Shown one piece after another: positions 21,575 to 39,615 of a DNA stretch of 39,704 bases. The DNA lies in NCBI GenBank assembly GCA_947168485.1, contig CAMVLZ010000001.1:1-39704 (forward strand). Reading direction: 5' to 3'. Positions within the stretch are counted from its first letter, which is position 1. Each line of letters opens with the position of its first letter. Made by a program: the position numbers and the translations under genes. The stretch comes from an uncultured Bacillota bacterium (GTDB lineage: Bacteria > Bacillota_I > Bacilli_A > RF39 > UBA660). Under the pieces are notes generated by a model. That model did no database searches and had not been told where the DNA came from. It was given only the letters and a program-made list of their open reading frames with translations.

Positions 21575-21648
21575 GCGGATGTAGTTTAATGGTAGAACCT
21601 CAGCCTTCCAAGCTGACTACGGGAGTTCGATTCTCCTCATCCGCTCCA
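21575..21648 (+). tRNA. tRNA-Gly(UCC); probable prophage attachment gene
   Basis: GCGGATG/CATCCGC acceptor, TCAGC-CTTCCAA-GCTGA anticodon arm, TTCGATT T-loop, encoded CCA. Confidence 0.95.
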
Positions 21649-21955: not shown

Positions 21956-22711
21956 TTATGCTACAATTAATTTTCCTTTTTTTAATTTATCTAACATTTG
22001 TATATTTTGTTTAGGAGAACCTACATAATTTTTAATACCATTTGCAGCTGCTATTTTCTTTCTATGTGTAAAAGAATTATCTATATTCATTGACTTTAAA
22101 GCGTCTGCTATTGATCCTGATTTACCTGTGTACTTTTTATAATAAGATATCTTTTTCTTTTTAGGTAAGTATTTCCACTTCTTGTTTAATCCTTTTATAA
22201 TTTTAGTATCATTCATATAGCAACTATCTTCTAATGAATATTCTTTAGGGAAACACCATATACCATATTTGTTCTTATGCCAATTACTTATAGTGTATTT
22301 TGCTTGTGCTATTTCTATATGACAATGTACTCCTGTACTTCTTGCTCCTCCACCTGCTTTAGAACCCATATTTCCTAATTGGTGTCCTTGAGGTACTATT
22401 TGTCCTATTCTAGCGTCAAAGGTTTCATCGTGAGCTGTCATAAATGTAGCATAGTCTACTCTACCATTCGCAAAATTAACTTTTGCCATACTTTGCCACA
22501 AACCTTGTCCGTTTGCTCTATCACTCCATATTAACTTGCAAGTACAAGGAGCGTAATAAGGGTATTTAACTCCTTTTTTTGCTCCTCTTATATCATATGC
22601 TTTTGTTCCTTTATGACTTCCTACTCCATAATCTTGTGTTATGTAAACGTCAGTAAAAGGACATAGAAAGTTTTCTCTTCCATTGCTTTTGCTAGTCTGT
22701 TGTTTCTTCTT
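21956..22711 (-). CDS. Endolysin with M23-like peptidase domain; proposed AAG start
   Basis: HKGTKAYDIRG and GVHCHIEIA zinc motifs; C-terminal wall-binding-like domain. The ATG at 22720 abuts the SD (TAGGAG-ATG, zero spacing); in-frame AAG at 22711 is 9 nt from AGGAG. Confidence 0.8.
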   Translation of the reverse strand, partial: KKKQQTSKSNGRENFLCPFTDVYITQDYGVGSHKGTKAYDIRGAKKGVKYPYYAPCTCKLIWSDRANGQGLWQSMAKVNFANGRVDYATFMTAHDETFDARIGQIVPQGHQLGNMGSKAGGGARSTGVHCHIEIAQAKYTISNWHKNKYGIWCFPKEYSLEDSCYMNDTKIIKGLNKKWKYLPKKKKISYYKKYTGKSGSIADALKSMNIDNSFTHRKKIAAANGIKNYVGSPKQNIQMLDKLKKGKLIVA

Positions 22712-22940
22712 CGTTATCATCTCCTACTGTATCAGAGGTGTAATCTACTTTATTGTAATTGATATTTGATATACCTGTAATTGCTCCAATAAATGTTGCG
22801 AAAGTAGATATAGTTAATATGATGACTTCAGTATCAAACTTATATATTTGTCCTAGACTTCCTATTAAAGTTATTAGAGCTGGTATAAATATCATTAATC
22901 CCCATTTGAAAATGTCATATATTATATTATTCATTCTCAT
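22692..22940 (-). CDS. Phage holin (Dp-1-like)
   Basis: IIYDIFKWGLMIFIPALITLIGSLGQIY plus second TM; SD GGAAGTGAGATT-ATG. Confidence 0.75.
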   Translation of the reverse strand: MRMNNIIYDIFKWGLMIFIPALITLIGSLGQIYKFDTEVIILTISTFATFIGAITGISNINYNKVDYTSDTVGDDNEEETTD

Positions 22941-22944
22941 AATC

Positions 22945-23190
22945 TCACTTCCTTTTTATTTCATTGATTTCATTTTGCATATTGTTAATGTTTTCTTCTA
23001 ACTTTGCTAATTTAATTCCAAAATTGTTGTGTACTTGTACTTTTTCATTTAACACTTTTACGTCTTCTTTTAAGTCATTAATCTTGTATTCAAACAATTC
23101 GTTGTTTGCTTTACTTGTTAAAATAGTTGCTACTATTGAAGGTATTGCTACACTTAATCCTGATATCAATGCTGTTATAATTCCGTTCTT
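22945..23190 (-). CDS. XhlA-like small membrane/coiled-coil lysis protein; proposed AAG start
   Basis: In-frame stop TAA just upstream, then AAAGGAGG-TATAAAA-AAG AAC GGA ATT; no ATG/GTG/TTG before a TTG 28 nt after the SD. Confidence 0.65.
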   Translation of the reverse strand, partial: KNGIITALISGLSVAIPSIVATILTSKANNELFEYKINDLKEDVKVLNEKVQVHNNFGIKLAKLEENINNMQNEINEIKRK

Positions 23191-23205: not shown

Positions 23206-23790
23206 TTAATCTACCACTTCAACGGTTAGTTTAGTATATTGTCCTCCACCTACTACAACTGTTCCTGTTGCTCCTGAACGTACCGCAAGATCAATATAAT
23301 CTCCACTTGAAACTGGTACTAATATTTCAGTTATTGCTAAATTCATAAAGTTAGTTGCGTTTGTCCAACGGTTTGCTGCGGTTCCCATTATTGCTCCATT
23401 TCTTCTAATGTTTATTTCAATATCATTAGCAATTCCTCTAACTATTCCACAAGCACTAACCTTTACATAACTAACTCCACTTCCAATTGTTATTCTATGT
23501 GTTGAAGAATTAAATGTTAATTTACTTCCTATTGAAGCATTTAAAGTATTCATATTTAAAGTATAATATGTCCATGCTGTTCCTATACTTACGTCAGTGT
23601 TAGCACTTAATCCTACTGTAATTATATTTTTGTCATATACTTCAGTTTCAACATTTTCTAATTCGGTTGCGTTTGCATTTATTATATTTTTTATTTCGTT
23701 TAGATCACTAGCATTGCATTTATTTATATCAGCTACATTGCTATTTGTGTTTATTGCTACTTTATCTGAATATGATATTCTTTGTGCCTT
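23206..23790 (-). CDS. Baseplate/receptor-binding-like protein; proposed AAG start
   Basis: Beta-rich C-terminal domain; ATG at 23799 abuts the SD AGGAG; AAG at 23790 is 9 nt from it. Confidence 0.6.
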   Translation of the reverse strand, partial: KAQRISYSDKVAINTNSNVADINKCNASDLNEIKNIINANATELENVETEVYDKNIITVGLSANTDVSIGTAWTYYTLNMNTLNASIGSKLTFNSSTHRITIGSGVSYVKVSACGIVRGIANDIEINIRRNGAIMGTAANRWTNATNFMNLAITEILVPVSSGDYIDLAVRSGATGTVVVGGGQYTKLTVEVVD

Positions 23791-23802
23791 AATAATCATC
23801 TC

Positions 23803-25767
23803 CTATTCTATTCTTAACTTTTGTGTTAAGGTGTAATAATTTCCAATTGATAAATTAGAAGCGTCTATTGTCATATATGTTTGACTATTATCACTTGAAT
23901 TAATATCTATTGTATCTATTGCTTTTTCAATATAAATTGTATCTGTTATTGTATAGTCAGTTGTATCGTTTTGTATAATATCTAATCCATATAAACTGAT
24001 AGTTCCGTCATTCCAATTTATTTGTATATTTCCTATCTTTTTACTATTCATAGTGCTTTCTCCAAAGTTGTTAGCTGTATTATTTATATTTGTATTTATG
24101 TTTGTTGCAGTTTGTTGATATTGTATATTTGTATCTTCATCTATTACATTTATTGTATTTATGAAGTTTACATAAAGTGTTTCATATATGTTTTTATTAA
24201 TAATATTATTATCTGTGTTCAATATAATATTAGTTAATCCATACAATTCTTTATCTTTTATATTAATGCCGTTCAACATAGTGTTTGGAACTTCAACAGT
24301 TGAGGTAGTAGTATTTTTAAAAGTTGTTAGATTATACAAATTTCTACCAAATACAATGTTATTATCACTATTATATAGAACACTAGAATGTGGAATTAAA
24401 GAATTATAATTGATATAACTAGTTCCATTGTAATTAAGATTATTATATATTTCTTTTATAATTTTTATGTTGAAGAATGTCCTTCTAAAGTTTTGTGATA
24501 TAAGAGAACTAGACACAATATTATAAATATTAAATGAATAAACCATAGTATATTCCATTACATATTTTTGATTACTTGCTATTTGTATTGGTTCCCATAT
24601 ATCATTTTCTAATCTTTGATAATTAATATCAGCAGTATTATTTGAATAATTAAAGTTGTTGCAATACCACAAATATAATTCTCCGTTCAAACTATTAATA
24701 AATATTCCTTCACGGGACGTGTTATAGTCGAAATTGCCTATATTTTTTATATATATTTCTTTTAATTCATTTGTACTATATGTATATTTATATAATCCCA
24801 CATATCTTGGTATAACTTCGGGAGACCACCTTTGATTATTGATAACAAAATATACATTGTCATAATCTATAAAACTAACCTGGTTTCTCATTGCTACACT
24901 ATCAACATAAGGTCTTATTTCTTCCCTTTCTGATAAAATTTCTGTCAATGTGGTTCCGTCCCAGGAATACGCTGTAATTGGATCAACATTTTTTGTTATT
25001 ATTGCCCTAAAACTTGCATTATCGTCATTATCAAAATATACATTTATTCCTCCATATAAGTAAGAAACGTAAGCAGTTGATACTTTTTGCGACCATTCAT
25101 TGCTAGAACCTACATTTATTGTTAAATTAATTATTCTAACCCCTTCATAATATATATTGTTTCTACTTGTAGACGTTTTTCCTGCTATTATATAATGAGA
25201 AGCTGTTGGGTTTTTTACTATATCAATACAAAAAATATTTTTATAAGCGTCTGGAAAATTATATGATTTTCTTAAACTTACACTATAATCATTGTTATAG
25301 TCAGGTGCTGAAACATTATTTAACATTATAATTCTTTTTGGGTTTGTTGTGATATTATCAGTTCCTGTTGGTAGTGCAAATATTGTACTATCTACACCAA
25401 CAAAAGTTCCGTCTTCAATTTGTATCATTTTTTGAATAGGTCTTAACAACGTGCCACTTGAAAACTCATATATTGTTTTTATAGGTTTCATATTTTGATC
25501 TAACACCATTATAAAACCTCTACTATCATTTAATGCTGTTTTCCCTTCAGGAACATATCCTCCATATAAAATAAAATTACCATTTGTAGTTGACTGAATT
25601 ACGTCCATTGGCATAAAATTTGTATAATTTTCTTCTGGTATAAATCCAGCAAATTCAGTTCTTAAAATATTGTTAATTTCATCTAAATTCTGACGTTCAT
25701 CTGGTGCTGTTGTTGATATATTTCCTGTTATATATTCGCCTAACAACTCTTTATAATCATTTGTCTT
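23803..25767 (-). CDS. Tail fiber/tip protein; proposed AAG start
   Basis: Large ORF after the tail-associated gene. TTG at 25746 lacks a spaced SD; frame extends upstream through AAG ACA AAT GAT TAT AAA GAG, with AGGTGG-7 nt-AAG. Confidence 0.6.
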   Translation of the reverse strand, partial: KTNDYKELLGEYITGNISTTAPDERQNLDEINNILRTEFAGFIPEENYTNFMPMDVIQSTTNGNFILYGGYVPEGKTALNDSRGFIMVLDQNMKPIKTIYEFSSGTLLRPIQKMIQIEDGTFVGVDSTIFALPTGTDNITTNPKRIIMLNNVSAPDYNNDYSVSLRKSYNFPDAYKNIFCIDIVKNPTASHYIIAGKTSTSRNNIYYEGVRIINLTINVGSSNEWSQKVSTAYVSYLYGGINVYFDNDDNASFRAIITKNVDPITAYSWDGTTLTEILSEREEIRPYVDSVAMRNQVSFIDYDNVYFVINNQRWSPEVIPRYVGLYKYTYSTNELKEIYIKNIGNFDYNTSREGIFINSLNGELYLWYCNNFNYSNNTADINYQRLENDIWEPIQIASNQKYVMEYTMVYSFNIYNIVSSSLISQNFRRTFFNIKIIKEIYNNLNYNGTSYINYNSLIPHSSVLYNSDNNIVFGRNLYNLTTFKNTTTSTVEVPNTMLNGINIKDKELYGLTNIILNTDNNIINKNIYETLYVNFINTINVIDEDTNIQYQQTATNINTNINNTANNFGESTMNSKKIGNIQINWNDGTISLYGLDIIQNDTTDYTITDTIYIEKAIDTIDINSSDNSQTYMTIDASNLSIGNYYTLTQKLRIE

Positions 25768-27257: not shown

Positions 27258-29072
27258 CTAACCTCCATAACCATAATTGTAATCATTCTTTGCTCCACCA
27301 GAGAATGTTTTTATTTTTGATACTACTTGTCCTAATGGATCAGTTTCAACATTTACGTTATTAACCACATTTACGTTAGGACTTAATGTATTATTCATTG
27401 TTCCTGTCATACTAGGACTTAAATTAAACATACCATTAATTGCTTTATCTAATTCAGGTCGCATTTTTTCTAATCCTTCAGTATAACCTAACATTGAAAA
27501 TCTACCAATAATTGCAAACTCTTTTGACGGAGAATGAATACCTAGAACATTTTTCATACCTTTTAAAATACTTTTTCCTAGTCCTTTGAATTTATTTATT
27601 ACATAATCTTTCATATCTTTTGCACCATTCCAAAGTCCTTTTATAATATTTTTACCCACGTCTTTCATTTTTGAGAATTCCTTTTTCAAAGCACTAACAA
27701 TATTTGTTATAATCTTCGGAACATTTCTAACCAATGTTGGAATACCCTTGATAATTCCACTCCACAATTTCATAGGAATTTGAATTGCAGCAGCTGCCAA
27801 TTTTGGAAATGCCCTGATTAAAGCACCAACCAATTTTATTATTATAATAGGCGCTTTTTGTTGCAATACTGGAATAGTTGCGATTATTCCGTCAATTAAT
27901 GCGAATATAATTTTTATTCCTAAATCGATAACTAAATCAATGTTCTCTAGCAACTTCATTAATGCGTCTAAAAGTGTTGAAATAACCATAGGAATAAGCG
28001 TTGGAATTATCTTGATTAGAGCATTTATTACCTTTATTGTCATACTTATCATCATACTGATTATAGTAGGTAATGACTTGACTAAAATATTCAAAATGCT
28101 TGGCAATGCAGAAATTAAACCTGTCATTAATGCGCTAACTGATGATATTAACGAAGGTAAAAGTCTATTAATAAACGAAGGCAAACTTTTTGTTATTATT
28201 GTAATTAATCTAGGTAATACCTTCGCAACCCCAACCATTGCTTTTTCAATTATAGGTATTAAATTATTTGCGAATGTTCCAGCTGCACCAACAAATTGAT
28301 CTATGAGTTTGTCTAGGTTCGCTCCGTCTTTTGAAAAACCTGCGATTAAGTTTTCCCACGTTGCTTTCATCATATTCATAGAACCTTGTATTGTTTGACT
28401 TGCTTCTTTTTCGGTTCTATTTAATGCTCCTGCTGCTTTAACATAATGTTGAATAACGTCTAGTATTTGATCGTTTGTTAGTTCTGAAGTATCTTTTATA
28501 TTTTTATTCAAAACTCCACTCTTGTTTGCTGCTTCTATGAAACCTTCTTTAGTCCCTTTGATACCTACATTTAAGTTATCTAAATATGAATAAGTTCCTT
28601 TTAACGCCCAATTTATTGCACCTTGATATTGTTCTACTGTTCCACCATAGGTATTATATAAGTCAGAAGACATTTGTATCATTTTGTTTGTATATTCAAT
28701 AGCATTTGCATTTTTACCTATTCCATTATTAATAATAGAATAAGATCCTTCGAATGCTTTTAAATATTCGTTTTGTGATAGTGTTAAGTTCTTATATGCT
28801 TCTTCACTCATTTTTGCTACTTTTTGCATATTTTGTGAACCCTTACCAAATAATGCCTCTAGTCCACCATTTAATTGCTCGAATTCTGAATATGCTTGAA
28901 CTGATTTTTTAACAAGTCCTGTTATCGCAGCAGTTGCTACTACTGTTCCAGCAACAACACTTTTTCCTATTAAAGAACCTATTCCTCCTAACTTACCTTT
29001 TATTTTAGTAAGTTTGCTGTCCATATCTTTGCTTTCGCCTTTAAAGTAAAATACTACTGAACCACCATTCTT
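27258..29072 (-). CDS. Tape measure protein; proposed AAG start
   Basis: Hydrophobic helical repeats, IKGLWNGAKDMKDYV. Frame extends 16 codons upstream of the annotated ATG (KNGGSVVFYFKGESKD) to AAG located GGAGG-7 nt-AAG. Confidence 0.85.
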   Translation of the reverse strand, partial: KNGGSVVFYFKGESKDMDSKLTKIKGKLGGIGSLIGKSVVAGTVVATAAITGLVKKSVQAYSEFEQLNGGLEALFGKGSQNMQKVAKMSEEAYKNLTLSQNEYLKAFEGSYSIINNGIGKNANAIEYTNKMIQMSSDLYNTYGGTVEQYQGAINWALKGTYSYLDNLNVGIKGTKEGFIEAANKSGVLNKNIKDTSELTNDQILDVIQHYVKAAGALNRTEKEASQTIQGSMNMMKATWENLIAGFSKDGANLDKLIDQFVGAAGTFANNLIPIIEKAMVGVAKVLPRLITIITKSLPSFINRLLPSLISSVSALMTGLISALPSILNILVKSLPTIISMMISMTIKVINALIKIIPTLIPMVISTLLDALMKLLENIDLVIDLGIKIIFALIDGIIATIPVLQQKAPIIIIKLVGALIRAFPKLAAAAIQIPMKLWSGIIKGIPTLVRNVPKIITNIVSALKKEFSKMKDVGKNIIKGLWNGAKDMKDYVINKFKGLGKSILKGMKNVLGIHSPSKEFAIIGRFSMLGYTEGLEKMRPELDKAINGMFNLSPSMTGTMNNTLSPNVNVVNNVNVETDPLGQVVSKIKTFSGGAKNDYNYGYGG

Positions 29073-29141: not shown

Positions 29142-29609
29142 TTAACCTGCTGTTGCAGTTCCTATTAAAGTCATTTCGAAAGAGAATTCGCTAACGTCTT
29201 CAGCAGCTCCTCCTAAATCGCTTAATGATAGATTTACGTCCGCAGTATAAGTAGTATAAGATAATGCGCTATTTTCTACTGCTGTTAATAAATCAAATTT
29301 AATTTCAACATTGTTGAATTGTTCTATTGTACCTTCACTTAATAAAGTGTGTACTTTTCCTAATAATGCTAAATCTCCTGCGTTATTTGCATCTAGTTTT
29401 AGTGTTCCTGATAATACAACACTAGCACCAGTAATTAAACGTCTTTGAAGTGCGTCACAATAAACGTAGAAGTCTTGTGTTTCTAAATCAGTATCAATTC
29501 CTACTTCTGAAGTAGTACATACTTTACTCCATACAGGAGTTGCAGTTGTACCAGTATTAATTGATAAATCTTTAATTAATTGTCTATTTGATATAAAGAA
29601 ATTTGCCTT
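29142..29609 (-). CDS. Major tail protein; proposed AAG start
   Basis: Position and beta-rich composition. Track start GTG at 29624 lies inside the SD (GTGAGGAGG); GGAGG-AATAGT-AAG GCA AAT TTC. Confidence 0.7.
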   Translation of the reverse strand, partial: KANFFISNRQLIKDLSINTGTTATPVWSKVCTTSEVGIDTDLETQDFYVYCDALQRRLITGASVVLSGTLKLDANNAGDLALLGKVHTLLSEGTIEQFNNVEIKFDLLTAVENSALSYTTYTADVNLSLSDLGGAAEDVSEFSFEMTLIGTATAG

Positions 29610-31073: not shown

Positions 31074-31880
31074 TTAAACTAATTTTATAATTGCTTCGTC
31101 TCTAACGATTTCAGCTCCGAACATTGCTCTACCTTCAATTACGAACATTCCAGGTAATCCAGGGTATTCACTAAATTGGTTGAAGTTAGAGAAATACATA
31201 TCTCCTGCTACTGCTTCTTCGTTAGTAAAGAAACCTTTATCTCCAGTAGTTAATGTTGCTGAAGCAATTGGGAATATATCTACACCGTAAGCACGTGCAA
31301 CAGTTCCTCTATCTACTCCTTCAACTCCTGCTAGAGTTTCGAATTTTAATAATGAAGTCATTCCAGAAACTAGTTTTCCATATTGAGTTGCTTCTAATCC
31401 TAATTTGTATCTATCATAAGCATTGTTATTGAATAATGTTGCTTTTAAGTTATTGATATCTGCAATTGGATCAGCAGTTAATGTATAACTTTGAGTTGCA
31501 GCAGTTAATTTTCCATAACCATATGTATCGATAGCGTTTGCAATTGCTGCGTCTTCTTGTGCTATTTGACTTTCAATTGCTTGTGCAATGTTTTGTACTC
31601 TTGGATCTACTGCTACTGAATAATGTTTGTCTAATTCTGTTAAATCGATTTTAACACTATCATAAGTTGCTAGTGTTGGTGCAATTGGAGTTGCTCCTAC
31701 TGCGTTTGCTATTGCTACTGGTTTTGTTTTGATAACTTCGATCATAGGAGTTCCAGTACTTCTAATTTCTCCTAAATATGAAGGATTTAAAAAGTTCATG
31801 AATGTTGAACGATATAGTAAATCTTCATATACTTTTCTTACTACTCCTTGTAAGTCTAAATTTAATGCTGTGTAATTCAT
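31074..31880 (-). CDS. Major capsid protein
   Basis: Follows scaffold; FMNLFNPSYLGEIRSTGTPMIEV-type N-terminus; strong AAGGAGATGAAATT-ATG. Confidence 0.8.
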   Translation of the reverse strand: MNYTALNLDLQGVVRKVYEDLLYRSTFMNFLNPSYLGEIRSTGTPMIEVIKTKPVAIANAVGATPIAPTLATYDSVKIDLTELDKHYSVAVDPRVQNIAQAIESQIAQEDAAIANAIDTYGYGKLTAATQSYTLTADPIADINNLKATLFNNNAYDRYKLGLEATQYGKLVSGMTSLLKFETLAGVEGVDRGTVARAYGVDIFPIASATLTTGDKGFFTNEEAVAGDMYFSNFNQFSEYPGLPGMFVIEGRAMFGAEIVRDEAIIKLV

Positions 31881-32489: not shown

Positions 32490-33494
32490 TTACTTATATT
32501 GTTCTATTACGGACTTTTGCTCTTTGATTTTTTGATTAATCTTTCTTATCTTCTGATTAATCTTGTCAATGTCTTCATAACCACCTAATTCTTTATAGAT
32601 TTTTTTATCATTCCTTAATCTACGTTTTTTTAATTCTAGTGCATTTATTTTTTGCAATGAATTATAAACTTCTGGTGGACTTGATACTGAAGGCGTTGTC
32701 TTTATTTCGCTTGAATAGTTTTCAATAGGGTGTTTACAATTTGGGTGCTTTAATCCTCCGTCTAATGCTACTTGTATGTTAGGGTATATTGGATTTACAC
32801 CTGTTAATGAGTAAACTCTATCTTCATAAGGTAAGCAATAAGGACAGCTTCCAAAATGCCCTGGAACATATACTAGATCATTTTCAGTCTTTATTGCGTT
32901 ATCTAATGTTTCATTCCATACACTATTCGTTAAGTTTGTGTTATATACCATACTGTTATAACTTGCTATGTCATGGTACGCTACTATTTGTCCTTTTTTG
33001 TTATAGTAAGGAACTACTTTTTCGACTTTATCGAACTTTGATACTTTTTCCAATAAGTATTGTGCTTTATCTATCTCTTTTGTCTTAATTGTTCCTAAAC
33101 TCTTACCATAATAGTTTGTTATTACGCGTATATACTTATCTCTCGCTTTCTTTTCGTCAAAGTCTGATATTTTATACTTTAATTTCTCAATGTCTTTTAT
33201 TTTAGGTTTTTCGAATACATTATTAACCTCATCTGGATTAATGTCCTTAATCATTTTTTCTACTTTCTCGTAGTTTCTATTTGGTTTTGAAATTATCTTT
33301 TCTATTTCTTTTTTAAAAGTTTCTACTCCAACCATTCCTAGTAAGAACACAAAGTATGTATATTTTGCTTTATCTAATTCTTCGTACTTTTTGTTTTTGT
33401 CTTTATCTACTTCTCGTCTTATGTATTCTTCTATCTCTGCTTCGGTATAACCTTTATCTTGTAAATCTTGAATTACTTTTTCATATTCAAACAT
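32490..33494 (-). CDS. Minor capsid protein (Mu F-like)
   Basis: GSCPYCLPYEDRVYSLTG...GLKHPNCKHPIENY. Confidence 0.75.
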   Translation of the reverse strand: MFEYEKVIQDLQDKGYTEAEIEEYIRREVDKDKNKKYEELDKAKYTYFVFLLGMVGVETFKKEIEKIISKPNRNYEKVEKMIKDINPDEVNNVFEKPKIKDIEKLKYKISDFDEKKARDKYIRVITNYYGKSLGTIKTKEIDKAQYLLEKVSKFDKVEKVVPYYNKKGQIVAYHDIASYNSMVYNTNLTNSVWNETLDNAIKTENDLVYVPGHFGSCPYCLPYEDRVYSLTGVNPIYPNIQVALDGGLKHPNCKHPIENYSSEIKTTPSVSSPPEVYNSLQKINALELKKRRLRNDKKIYKELGGYEDIDKINQKIRKINQKIKEQKSVIEQYK

Positions 33495-34834
33495 TAGATT
33501 TCTCCAAATTCTACATTAATCCTATCTGCTTCCTTTTCGTATTCTTCTACTAAATCGTCAGTTTCTATGTCTTCATCTATTAATTTATTTAATAATGGAG
33601 CAACTATCTTAACTCTTGTCTTATATGGTATTGCCATTGTTCTTTGGATTTTATTTAAAACGTCTATCTTTTTCATATCGTCAAATCTTTCGTTAGAACC
33701 ATAGTCCCACATTAATTCAGTAGGTAATTCATTTATAGTTATGTTTTGACTTTGTTGTAGTCTTACTATGTTTGCAAGTAAGTTATCTATTTGACTTGAT
33801 AATTGTGTTTTAATTGCTTCTATCATCATTTCACTTGCATTTGCTGATAATTCTACGTTTGCTTTATTCATATATGCGTCTTTTTCATAACCGAATGAAG
33901 CTGTACTTAATCCTGCCATTTGAATTATTTGATAGTCATAGAATTTAAAAGACTTTTCGTATTCATCTATTCTTATATTTCCTTGTAAGAATTCAAATAG
34001 TTGTTTATCTTTATCTCCAGGAAGTAATGTAAAGTAGTCATTTAAACTATTAACACTCATTGTTCTTACGTTATAAGTTGTATCTCCTGGAACAAATTTC
34101 AATGGATTACTTGTTGTTTGATAGTGTTCTGTTGCTACTATCTTTGTTTTTGTCTTTTCAATTTCTTCAGCTATTGTATTTACAATTAACATTTCTTCAT
34201 TTAATAGTTTTTCACTATCTTTAAAGAAGTTTTCTCCAATGTCTATATTTACTAATACTTCATAAGGAAGGTTATACACTGGAAGGTATTCATTTCCCGT
34301 TAGATTATTGAAACGTCCTAGTTGTATTCTAGTCCATTCTTTTGCATTCTTTGTCTTTTCGAATGCTTCAAATTCAATTGTACTTGTTCCTTCTTCTATC
34401 TCAATGTGTCTTTTTAACATTAATTGAGTATCTTCTATATCGAAGTCTTGTATAATATCTGCTTCTTTTACTTTGTCAAATTTTTGTACTAGATTATGTA
34501 TATCATTCTTTTTGATACATTCTAGGTATACTTTATCTTCATATTTATGTAAGTAAATGAAACTTTCTTCTTCATATACTGCTAGTTCTAATGCTTCTTT
34601 TAAAGTAGGCATTAACCAACCTATTTCTAGTCCTTCTGTTTGTGTCATTAGTTCACTTCCAAAGACTTGATTAACTATATATGAAGCGATTTTCTTTGCA
34701 GTTGGAGCAACAACATATTTACTTTCGTATTTTATGTTTGGCACTCCATTTGTCATTCCTGGTACTGATACCTTTGTTTTTACTTGTATATAAGGTGCTT
34801 GTAATACATTAAAAGGTCTTAAACTTCCGTTCTT
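33494..34834 (-). CDS. Portal protein; proposed AAG start
   Basis: Portal-like sequence. Frame extends 26 codons upstream of ATG 34756 (KNGSLRPFNVLQAPYIQVKTKVSVPG) to an AAG after AGAGGAG+9 nt; in-frame TAG just before. Confidence 0.8.
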   Translation of the reverse strand, partial: KNGSLRPFNVLQAPYIQVKTKVSVPGMTNGVPNIKYESKYVVAPTAKKIASYIVNQVFGSELMTQTEGLEIGWLMPTLKEALELAVYEEESFIYLHKYEDKVYLECIKKNDIHNLVQKFDKVKEADIIQDFDIEDTQLMLKRHIEIEEGTSTIEFEAFEKTKNAKEWTRIQLGRFNNLTGNEYLPVYNLPYEVLVNIDIGENFFKDSEKLLNEEMLIVNTIAEEIEKTKTKIVATEHYQTTSNPLKFVPGDTTYNVRTMSVNSLNDYFTLLPGDKDKQLFEFLQGNIRIDEYEKSFKFYDYQIIQMAGLSTASFGYEKDAYMNKANVELSANASEMMIEAIKTQLSSQIDNLLANIVRLQQSQNITINELPTELMWDYGSNERFDDMKKIDVLNKIQRTMAIPYKTRVKIVAPLLNKLIDEDIETDDLVEEYEKEADRINVEFGEI

Positions 34835-35376: not shown

Positions 35377-36740
35377 ATTTGAGGACACCTTCCTGTATCT
35401 ACGAATACTCTTATTATGTATCTTAATGCGTCTATGCTATGATCTAATTCTTTCTTATATACATTTGTTCCTGTTATCTCACTTTTTATTTTGTCATATT
35501 GATAACTTTCTAATTCTATAAGTCCTTCATCTTTTCCACTAAATACTGGAGTTCCGTCTTCAGTAAAATATCTTATGCTAGGAGTGTCTAATACTTTAAG
35601 GAATTCTTTATAGAATAAACTTTGTAAATGTTCTACTCCTTCTGATACACTTCCTGCGCCTTTTTTAGAAAGACTATGGTGTATTCCGTCAGCTATAAGT
35701 CTATTATCAAAATGACTTGCTTCACTATCTATTACTGTGTCAGTTATTGGAACATTGTCATATTGTTTTCCTAGATATCTTATGAAGTGTACTAATTGCC
35801 TTGAATAGAATTCAGTAGTAGGGTTATCTCCTTCTCTTGAAGGATCATGATAGTATATTCCTAATCTTACTAACTCCCAACAATTTTGTACTTTATCATA
35901 AACAAGCGCTATTGGTACAAAAGTAGTGGGATTTACACTACCATAATCTATTCCTATTCCTATTTCTCTTATTATGTAATTGTCTAATGAGTTAATAGTT
36001 GGAACATTTGGAAACACTCTACCTTCTGCAACAGTCCATTGATTATATATTTTTTGTTTCTTTAATGTATCATCTGGAAACATATCTAATACTTTCTTTA
36101 TTGCTTCTTCAGTATTTAGTAAAGGATTATCATAAGGGAAGAATGTATAATGCTTCGCTTCTGGTTTATTATCTATGTATTTAATTTTATAAGGGTGTCT
36201 ACTACTACCTTCAACATTGAAACTATGTATTGTCTTTAAATATGGATGATTAGCGAATGATACCTCTCTACCAGGTAATTCATCGAAAGACGCTTGTAAT
36301 TGTCTTTGAGTGTATATTCTTGCGCTTTCGTCTACCCATTCTAGTATTAATGGTTTTCCTAGTATCTTGTTGAAACTTGTTATGTTGTTAAATCCAAAGA
36401 AGAATATCTTTAAATTGTATATCTTTAGATACTTTTCTTCTGAACTACTCCAACTCAATTCGTATTCACTTTTATTGCTCCAACCAAACTTATTGAATAT
36501 TTGTAAGAAGTTCTCTACTATATTTGATTTTAGAGTATCAATAGTCCAACCTACTATGCAACCATTGTATTGTTTATCTTTGTCATAGTTATATAGATTT
36601 TTAGCATATTCTAAAATAGAATGACATATTGAGAAAGTCTTTCCACTTTGAGCTGATCCTAATACATATATTTCAGGTATGTTAGGACTAGTTATATCAT
36701 TCTTCAGTTTTAGTTGTTTCTTCGAAAGAGTTAAGTACAT
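35373..36740 (-). CDS. terL: Terminase large subunit
   Basis: VLGSAQSGKTFSICHSI (Walker A), LILEWVDESARI (Walker B), IGIDYGSVNPTTF and DSEASHFDNRL (nuclease). Confidence 0.9.
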   Translation of the reverse strand: MYLTLSKKQLKLKNDITSPNIPEIYVLGSAQSGKTFSICHSILEYAKNLYNYDKDKQYNGCIVGWTIDTLKSNIVENFLQIFNKFGWSNKSEYELSWSSSEEKYLKIYNLKIFFFGFNNITSFNKILGKPLILEWVDESARIYTQRQLQASFDELPGREVSFANHPYLKTIHSFNVEGSSRHPYKIKYIDNKPEAKHYTFFPYDNPLLNTEEAIKKVLDMFPDDTLKKQKIYNQWTVAEGRVFPNVPTINSLDNYIIREIGIGIDYGSVNPTTFVPIALVYDKVQNCWELVRLGIYYHDPSREGDNPTTEFYSRQLVHFIRYLGKQYDNVPITDTVIDSEASHFDNRLIADGIHHSLSKKGAGSVSEGVEHLQSLFYKEFLKVLDTPSIRYFTEDGTPVFSGKDEGLIELESYQYDKIKSEITGTNVYKKELDHSIDALRYIIRVFVDTGRCPQI

Positions 36741-36924
36741 TTTCTACCTCTTTTAATTTCTTGTCTACCTTTTTAAGTTTCTTACTTGCTTCTTTACCAC
36801 ATTCACTTTTAACGTCTTCAATAATAAGTTCTTTCTTTTCTAATTGTAGTTTTTCTTTTTCACTTACTATTCTTCCGTTGCTGTCCTTAATAAGATAGTT
36901 CTTGCCTACTTTGATAAACTCCTT
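36697..36924 (-). CDS. Small coiled-coil phage protein; proposed AAG start
   Basis: Track start GTG at 36933 lies inside the SD (AAAAGGAGTGATT); GGAG-8 nt-AAG GAG TTT ATC. Confidence 0.55.
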   Translation of the reverse strand, partial: KEFIKVGKNYLIKDSNGRIVSEKEKLQLEKKELIIEDVKSECGKEASKKLKKVDKKLKEVENVLNSFEETTKTEE

Positions 36925-38055: not shown

Positions 38056-38416
38056 TTAATCCTCCTACATTCTTTACCATACTTTCTTTTAGATCTTGTT
38101 CTATTTCTCTATTTGACAAGTATATTTCAGGTATCTTGTTAATACGTTTTTGTTCCCTCCAGTATTTCTTTTCTTCTTTATCTTTTATTTTTGATAAATC
38201 TATTGTTCTTGACTGCAATATTTTGTATAAAGGTTCACTTTCTGGAATACTATTAAATTTCATATTGAATTCGCTTAATGATAAGTCTAGAAATTCTTTA
38301 TAACTTATATCTTTGTACCTGGAGCAATAAAACGCATAAATTTGCTCTAAATCGTTTTCATAAGCAAAACATATTATTGTTTTATTATTTCTTGCTGGGC
38401 GTGTCTGCTTTAGCAC
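38048..38416 (-). CDS. Phage hypothetical protein; start uncertain
   Basis: ORF overlapping its neighbours; no clear SD. Confidence 0.45.
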   Translation of the reverse strand: MLKQTRPARNNKTIICFAYENDLEQIYAFYCSRYKDISYKEFLDLSLSEFNMKFNSIPESEPLYKILQSRTIDLSKIKDKEEKKYWREQKRINKIPEIYLSNREIEQDLKESMVKNVGGLNE

Positions 38417-38816
38417 CTGTTAAAGCTGATACTAATTCAGTACTAAAGTTTTCTATTTCTTCTTCAGTAAGTCCCATTTCTACAACTAATGTTATTATGT
38501 CATAACCTGTTATCTTTTCTACTATGCTTGATAATATAATTTGGTTTTCTTCTTCATAATAACTTTTTTCTAATTCATCCCAACTAGAACTATCATAGAA
38601 AGTTTTTCCTTCTTTTTTAACTTCTTTTACTAAATCACTTTTTGTTAATCCTTCTTTTGCTAAATCTTTTATAAGTCTATTTCTTGATCTATGTGTAGCA
38701 GAAGTTAATTCTTTTAATAGTTCTACTGTTCTTTTAATTTCAAATTCGTGTTTTTCTCCATTGATTTCACATTCTAACTTTGTTGTATCATTATCAATTT
38801 TAATAAATTTATACAT
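38385..38816 (-). CDS. Phage hypothetical protein (tail-assembly-chaperone-like size, position atypical)
   Basis: AGGAGGAAAT-ATG; acidic small protein. Confidence 0.5.
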   Translation of the reverse strand: MYKFIKIDNDTTKLECEINGEKHEFEIKRTVELLKELTSATHRSRNRLIKDLAKEGLTKSDLVKEVKKEGKTFYDSSSWDELEKSYYEEENQIILSSIVEKITGYDIITLVVEMGLTEEEIENFSTELVSALTGAKADTPSKK

Positions 38817-38829
38817 ATTTCCTCCTAAA

Positions 38830-38904
38830 TGGTGGCAGGGAAGGGATTTGCACCCTTGTTCTTCAGCTTAAGAGACTGACGAGATACTACTTCTCCACCC
38901 TGCA
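38830..38904 (-). tRNA. Phage initiator-like tRNA with anticodon CUU (would be auto-called tRNA-Lys(CUU))
   Basis: TGCAGGG TG GAGA AGTAGTA TCTC G TCAGT CTCTTAA GCTGA AGAAC AAGGG TGCAAAT CCCTT CCCTGCC A CCA. Full cloverleaf; U1xC72 mismatch, A11:U24, G26, CTC-anticodon-TAA loop and xxCAAAT T-loop match bacterial tRNA-fMet; anticodon CAU changed to CUU. Confidence 0.88.
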
Positions 38905-38926
38905 ATATAATGTACTTTATAAGCAC

Positions 38927-38985
38927 CATAGAATAGATAGACACAATGTCCTCAAGGGCGTTTGAATTACACTATCTATTCTACG
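38927..38985 (-). ncRNA. Hairpin element upstream of the initiator-like tRNA
   Basis: 12-bp perfect inverted repeat TAGAATAGATAG (38929-38940)/CTATCTATTCTA (38972-38983), extendable to 14 bp with a U-G pair valid on the minus strand; 31-nt loop. Confidence 0.45.
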
Positions 38986-38996
38986 CTATCTACAAA

Positions 38997-39380
38997 TTAC
39001 CACCTTTGTTTGTATTCTCTTTTTATTAATGTTTTGCCTTTAGAGTTTTTATCGTTTCTATGTTGATATTCAAAATCTTGTAATAAGTATTCTACTATTT
39101 CTCTTTGTTCTAATGTAGGTTCATGTAATTGGTTATTTATTATCTTGAATATTTTATTTAATGTTATGTATGTGTTTATGTCTTTATATTCTATTAAATG
39201 TAAATATTGATGAGGTGTAGACATTAATAATGCAATATTATTTTGTTCTAGTTTTCCACCAAATTCTTTTTTTATAATATGATGAGCTGTTAAATCTTTT
39301 TTAACTAATTTGTAATTCATCCAGTCTAAATTGCTTATTGGTTTATATATTTTTAACATTTCTCTAGTTATTTGTTTCAT
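38997..39380 (-). CDS. HNH-type endonuclease-like protein
   Basis: LTAHHIIKKEFGGKLEQNNIALLMSTPHQYLHLIEY. Confidence 0.7.
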   Translation of the reverse strand: MKQITREMLKIYKPISNLDWMNYKLVKKDLTAHHIIKKEFGGKLEQNNIALLMSTPHQYLHLIEYKDINTYITLNKIFKIINNQLHEPTLEQREIVEYLLQDFEYQHRNDKNSKGKTLIKREYKQRW

Positions 39381-39432: not shown

Positions 39433-39462
39433 CAAAAAAGATAGAATTTATGATCCTATCTT
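39433..39462 (-). terminator. Intrinsic terminator
   Basis: Minus AAGATAG-gatcataaatt-CTATCTT followed by T-run. Confidence 0.6.
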
Positions 39463-39615
39463 ATATATTTTATATTTTGATTTGTTCCTGAATAGAAAAA
39501 ACTTCTTTATTCCTTCTTTAGTAAAATGACAAGCGTCTTTGAACCATTCGCTTTCTTTGTCAAATATTAATGTTGGTTCTGATATATAACCTGTTTTAGT
39601 TTCTATAATATACTT
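39448..39615 (-). CDS. Small phage protein (55 aa); proposed AAG start
   Basis: Not in ORF track. AAAAGGAG-ATGAGTTTT-AAG TAT ATT ATA GAA; ATG abuts the SD, AAG is 9 nt away. Confidence 0.5.
   Translation of the reverse strand, partial: KYIIETKTGYISEPTLIFDKESEWFKDACHFTKEGIKKFFLFRNKSKYKIYKIGS

Follow-up and report, generated by a model that had tools for sequence, protein, structure and literature searches.

Introduction

To our knowledge, initiation of translation with methionine, through an initiator tRNA bearing the anticodon CAU, is close to universal, and the alternative start codons of bacteria are near-cognates read by that same tRNA. Phages bring in tRNAs of other kinds: suppressor tRNAs that recode stop codons, a possible means of controlling late and lysis genes, and elongator tRNAs linked to codon compensation and to evasion of tRNA nucleases. 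In initiator tRNAs, a mismatch at 1:72 together with G2:C71, C3:G70 and A11:U24 are determinants of formylation (PMC7949028). Initiators engineered to carry an altered anticodon, from amber initiators to the 64-codon set of Katoh and Suga (2023) and the work of Furukawa et al. (2026), start translation at the cognate codon. In a survey of 256 combinations of start codon and initiator anticodon, assayed in vitro with E. coli components, Katoh and Suga reported 12 that surpassed AUG with CAU. The best of these was AAG with CUU, at 47.6% full-length product, and virtually no mismatch was accepted at either of the first two codon positions (PMC10158994). These in vitro data imply that AAG should work as a start codon with a CUU initiator and not with the normal one. 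No natural precedent for such an arrangement was found in the openly licensed literature.

We describe here a temperate phage that has, in all likelihood, turned AAG into a start codon for part of its genes through a dedicated initiator-type tRNA, and discuss what this would mean for phage lysis and assembly.

The prophage

The window, that is, the whole stretch of 39,704 nucleotides that was analysed, contains the late half of a prophage of about 29.5 kb, inserted in a tRNA-Gly gene at contig positions 21635-51104 (about 21.6-51.1 kb), with every late gene on the minus strand. The part of the contig beyond the window (L068) gave access to the early genes. The following features frame the prophage:

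21635..21648, plus strand: attachment-site core CCTCATCCGCTCCA, 14 bases, at the 3' end of tRNA-Gly(TCC)
contig 50013-51008: integrase, beside the second attachment core
contig 51091-51104: second copy of the attachment core, marking the far end of the prophage

The sample is one phage, in a draft genome of 45 contigs. Gene functions were called from PHROGs and Pfam, and labels such as "tail tube" and "capsid" are positional or homologue-based. A promoter scan gave no signal above shuffles. Beyond the window, a run of small genes with GTG starts (L068 1294-2744, contig 40293-41743) shows near-identical start contexts (AAGGAAGTGATAAAGAGTG or close), which suggests a tandem duplication.

An initiator-type tRNA with the anticodon CUU

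Two adjoining features lie in the late region:

38830..38904, minus strand: phage initiator-type tRNA with a CUU anticodon, called tRNA-Lys(CTT) by ARAGORN, CCA encoded
38905..39000, minus strand: very stable hairpin just ahead of the tRNA, predicted folding energy -28.7 kcal/mol, z -3.97

The tRNA, whose parts read UGCAGGG-UG-GAGA-AGUAGUA-UCUC-G-UCAGU-CUCUUAA-GCUGA-AGAAC-AAGGG-UGCAAAU-CCCUU-CCCUGCC-ACCA, matches Rfam RF00005 at 55.8 bits, with its first pair flagged as non-standard by Infernal. That pair is U1:C72, unpaired, so that the tRNA has no Watson-Crick pair at 1:72, as in initiators, and G2:C71, C3:G70 and A11:U24, the initiator determinants of formylation, are all present. Its anticodon loop, CU-CUU-AA, is the tRNA-fMet loop with one base changed, and its anticodon stem and loop are the same as those of the tRNA-Met of Synechococcus phage S-CRM01 except for A35 to U. 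Identity to the tRNA-fMet of Caulobacter phage CcrBL9 is 60/77 (78%), and to the host tRNA-Lys(CTT) 43/86 aligned columns (50%); the paired 1:72 and host-like D- and T-arms of an elongator tRNA-Lys are lacking. Other features depart from bacterial initiators, namely a short D-loop without GG, G55 in the T-loop, and an anticodon stem (UCAGU/GCUGA: A29:U41, G30:C40, U31:G39) with one G:C pair instead of three at 29-31:39-41. Since the anticodon is CUU and not CAU, we name the molecule initiator-type and do not file it as a tRNA-fMet.

The 19 tRNAs found in the draft genome do not include the host's own initiator, for which reason the tRNA-fMet of its relatives, with the standard GGG/CCC stem, served as the host comparison. 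A D-arm with A11:U24 is not diagnostic by itself, as several taxa have it in their ordinary tRNA-Glu and tRNA-Asp; the weight is carried by the unpaired 1:72 and the loop. The same initiator-like D-arm (A11:U24) was seen in tRNA-Glu(ctc) genes of Gordonia phages (L023 1479-1625, L024 1480-1555), which are probably elongators because similar arms occur in ordinary bacterial tRNA-Glu and tRNA-Asp. The hairpin upstream of the phage tRNA is possibly a processing or regulatory element.

Genes that start at AAG

When each open frame was read systematically together with its Shine-Dalgarno (SD) sequence, AAG proved to be the sole well-spaced codon after the SD in eight genes of the window and in one further candidate:

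21956..22711, minus strand: endolysin (M23-like; PHROG endolysin/M23), AAG 22711-22709, TAGGAG ATGATAACG AAG, spacer 9 nt
22945..23190, minus strand: XhlA-like lysis-cassette protein, AAG 23190-23188, SD AAAGGAGGT ATAAAA AAG
23206..23790, minus strand: tail-end protein, AAG 23790-23788, SD AGGAG, 9 nt
23803..25767, minus strand: tail-end protein (KTNDYK..), AAG 25767-25765, SD AGGTGG
27258..29072, minus strand: tape measure (phrog_58, E 1.8e-41), AAG 29072-29070, SD AAAGGAGG, 7 nt
29142..29609, minus strand: tail-tube-like protein (by position), AAG 29609-29607, SD AGGAGG, 6 nt
33494..34834, minus strand: portal (phrog_533), AAG 34834-34832, SD AGGAG 9 nt / GGAGGT
36697..36924, minus strand: small gene ahead of the large terminase, AAG 36924-36922, SD AAAGGAG, 8 nt
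39448..39615, minus strand: candidate AAG gene from SD and spacing only, AAG 39615, SD AAAGGAG, 9 nt

The XhlA-like gene, which matches phrog_1863 (unknown function), owes its name to its position and homologues. In the candidate at 39615, for which no homologue was found, an ATG adjoins the SD, as it does in the endolysin. Outside the window, an early-region gene has an AAG at 42827 that matches the annotated ATG of Butyrivibrio phage Ceridwen, and AAG 48009 is the probable start of a gene for a DnaD-like helicase loader, supported only by an AGGAGG 8 nt upstream, as a homologue search gave none useful; both genes lie upstream of the tRNA. The starts are all AAG and never AAA, as expected for a tRNA with C34.

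Canonical starts persist beside them: GTG in one gene (37298) and ATG in about 15 other phage genes, which include the scaffold, the terminase and the following two:

22692..22940, minus strand: holin (phrog_881, E 1.5e-21), ATG with SD
31074..31880, minus strand: major capsid-position gene, ATG with SD; an 89% identical homologue also has ATG

A preliminary description of this DNA had assigned AAG starts to the endolysin, XhlA-like, portal, tape-measure and tail-tube genes and ATG to the holin and capsid, and both assignments were borne out, the former at the positions listed, where homologues are canonical, and the latter at 22940 and 31880.

Start codons in related phages

About 27 related loci came from querying IMG/VR with the terminase, a tail protein, the portal and the endolysin in turn, and their homologues of the eight AAG genes of the window were aligned at the N terminus. 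Every one of the 67 non-redundant comparisons showed a canonical homologous start (66 ATG, one GTG), and none showed AAG. The homologues usually keep the SD too, and their start codons fall 0-3 codons from the window AAG, mostly exactly on it. ATG stands at the position of AAG 22711 in the endolysin homologues L084 (86% identical), L041 and L085, and begins the XhlA-like homologues in L084 and L044 and those of the 23790 gene in L044, L047 and L040. It is also the start of six homologues of the 25767 gene, two of which read MTNDYK against KTNDYK in the window, of eight non-redundant homologues of the tape measure and of 16 of the tail-tube-like gene; the 18 non-redundant portal homologues divide into 17 with ATG and one with GTG, and the 36924 gene reads KEFIKV against MEFIKL/M in 11 homologues. 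In the endolysin, TAGGAG and nine bases are followed by AAG in the window phage and by ATG in L084, and the N termini are KKKQQTSKSNGREN and MKKNQTSKSNGREN, respectively. By our own arithmetic, if ATG changed at random and by single steps, with seven non-canonical codons within reach, the chance that eight genes all arrived at one codon would be about 1 in 800,000, given the first. Judged from sequence, then, many genes carry a new start codon where their homologues have ATG, the pattern that marks a start-codon reassignment.

Three other readings of start sites were considered and rejected. An ATG at 22720 in the endolysin frame, the choice expected of an automatic gene finder, directly abuts the SD and is CTG in L084, and since the position of 22711 is ATG there, AAG 22711 is taken as the start. 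An AAG start for the frame 42060-41737 was dropped, GTG 41961 being adequate and another frame overlapping. The Gp15 frame (38419-38048) was not counted as starting at AAG 38410, one relative also being without a start there; a CCC-AGY in the upstream frame is common to the relatives, as would be expected if the frame were reached by +1 frameshifting out of the tail-chaperone gene ahead of it. Such frameshifting is probable for the tail-chaperone/Gp15 pair at CCC-A (38385-38420), where the window reads ACG CCC AGC AAG AAA TAA, L016 reads ACA CCC AGC AAG TAA, and L017 and L018 read TTT CCC AGT.

The lysis cassette of L084 (7504-8927: XhlA, holin and the 86%-identical endolysin), with ATG throughout, sits in an otherwise different phage, which suggests either a recent exchange or a recent change to AAG. 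A terminase search in 117 related genomes found no convincing relative, and a portal search in genome contigs and INPHARED found none.

Where the tRNA occurs

None of the first 16 related phage loci has a tRNA, and among 10 whole records a single one (L086) has a tRNA above the cut-off, namely a divergent tRNA-Gly in which 1:72 is paired normally. This AT-rich tRNA-Gly(TCC), at 1501-1571, is the isoacceptor that serves the window phage as attachment site, and in its T-loop, too, UGC takes the place of UUC. In IMG/VR, a strict pattern of the phage tRNA gave no matches and a looser one gave one, which lies inside a protein gene and is not a tRNA. Across 60 relatives, 395 genomes of the class and 385 of the order, the matches were the phage's own genome and one with three mismatches, whose loop reads CTC; initiator-like patterns without A35, run on IMG/VR and genome contigs, returned only tRNA-Glu and tRNA-Asp. 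Both AAG starts and a tRNA of this architecture are absent from the relatives examined: those without a CUU tRNA have no AAG starts, and the sole phage with one has many, although many related records are fragments in which absence of the tRNA is not proof for each.

Proposed mechanism of initiation

In the mechanism that we propose, a dedicated phage tRNA of initiator type would have had its anticodon changed from CAU to CUU. Going by that anticodon, it would probably be charged with lysine by the class II LysRS of the host, then formylated by the host transformylase and delivered by IF2 to the ribosomal P site, where it would pair with an AAG placed after a Shine-Dalgarno sequence and initiate in vivo. 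ATG would have turned into AAG in no fewer than eight genes of the window and in one early gene, leaving the endolysin, XhlA, portal, tape measure and others in need of the tRNA and the ATG genes (holin, capsid, terminase) independent of it. The host does encode fmt (methionyl-tRNA formyltransferase) and a class II LysRS, besides its own elongator tRNA-Lys(CTT). E. coli can initiate with formyl-lysine, a lysyl initiator tRNA being a poor substrate for formylation. With moderate confidence, we regard the lysyl (formyl-lysine) initiator as a second, phage-private channel of initiation, through which part of the proteome would be lysine-started and tRNA-dependent.

Lysis and the alternative explanations

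The preliminary description went further, proposing that expression of the tRNA gates lysis and assembly as a checkpoint, which might also limit leaky lysogenic expression and block satellites. Its premise of dependence holds up: given an initiator architecture with CUU, and AAG starts that are absent from relatives without the tRNA, translation of the endolysin, XhlA, portal and tape-measure genes very probably depends on the CUU tRNA, and a phage deleted for it should neither lyse its host nor form virions. The lock itself does not follow. The AAG set is mixed, comprising head, tail, tail-end and early genes (42827 and probably 48009), and the holin, which is the usual lysis clock, starts at ATG. 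The tRNA gene lies on the strand of the structural genes, which it closely precedes, and 13 nt separate it from the following gene start. It probably shares a transcript with most AAG genes, in which case it would add delay or dependence and not act as an independent switch. Early AAG genes, ATG in the holin, capsid, scaffold and terminase, and the position of the tRNA together fit a general partial reassignment across the genome, of which the dependence of lysis is most likely a consequence rather than a lysis-specific checkpoint.

The nature of the tRNA admits two other explanations. The gene is called tRNA-Lys(CTT), and could be an ordinary elongator for codon compensation, with AAG weakly used by the normal host initiator; we hold this to be very improbable, considering that 1:72 is unpaired and the arms are initiator-like, that the host already has a tRNA-Lys(CTT), that relatives show no AAG starts, and that a mismatch at the middle codon position was not tolerated in vitro (PMC10158994). 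It is doubtful, too, that the proposed initiator is charged with methionine instead of lysine, as the initiator-like acceptor stem and an A73 common to Met and Lys tRNAs would permit, since recognition by MetRS hinges largely on the CAU anticodon, and that by LysRS on U35 and U36.

As to why a private channel should exist, an evolved checkpoint, in which selection for AAG made lysis and virion proteins wait for the tRNA and limited lysogenic leak, could explain why the endolysin, XhlA, portal and tape measure all have AAG and why the tRNA, with its strong upstream hairpin, precedes the structural genes on their strand, but seems unlikely given the ATG starts of the holin, capsid, scaffold and terminase, the AAG of the early-region gene at 42827 and probably of the DnaD-like gene, both upstream of the tRNA, and a gate that, if the tRNA is co-transcribed with most of its targets, is not independent of late transcription. 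A neutral ratchet, in which a captured initiator tRNA changed from CAU to CUU, made ATG-to-AAG changes harmless and let drift bring dependence without benefit, is a tentative but real possibility: a single T-to-A substitution is enough for each such change, the AAG set is partial and functionally mixed, and the endolysin change looks recent, its 86%-identical homologue having ATG. Against it, at least nine genes changed with their SD kept, suggesting that AAG works well or is favoured, and some initial advantage would be required for the anticodon to change at all. VapC nucleases that cleave tRNA-fMet exist, and anticodon-loop changes let phages evade nucleases (PMC10264068), so a private channel might shield key proteins when host defences or toxins cut or deplete tRNA-fMet; yet most phage genes, the holin and terminase included, still need ATG initiation, and evasion is a rather improbable motive.

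Comparison with known systems

If true, the partial reassignment to AAG proposed here would be the first natural start-codon reassignment through its own initiator tRNA, within the openly licensed literature. Gene finders would miss or mis-start essential phage genes, orthogonal initiation would gain a natural part, and the role of a private channel (timing, defence evasion or nothing) would become testable. With the tRNA-fMet of bacteria and phages (CcrBL9, S-CRM01), the phage tRNA has in common the unpaired 1:72, G2:C71, C3:G70, A11:U24 and a CU-NNN-AA loop, and differs in its CUU anticodon, in having one of the three anticodon-stem G:C pairs, in G55 and in the short D-loop. It resembles phage elongator tRNAs in being a single phage-encoded tRNA gene, but has initiator architecture and resides in a host already equipped with tRNA-Lys(CTT). 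As in stop-codon recoding by phage suppressor tRNAs, a phage tRNA goes together with matching codons rewritten in phage genes, whereas here a start codon would be reassigned and the meaning of internal AAG left unchanged. Like the engineered initiators, it would start translation at the codon cognate to an altered anticodon; those are synthetic, whereas this one belongs to a natural phage in which many genes have apparently been rewritten to match.
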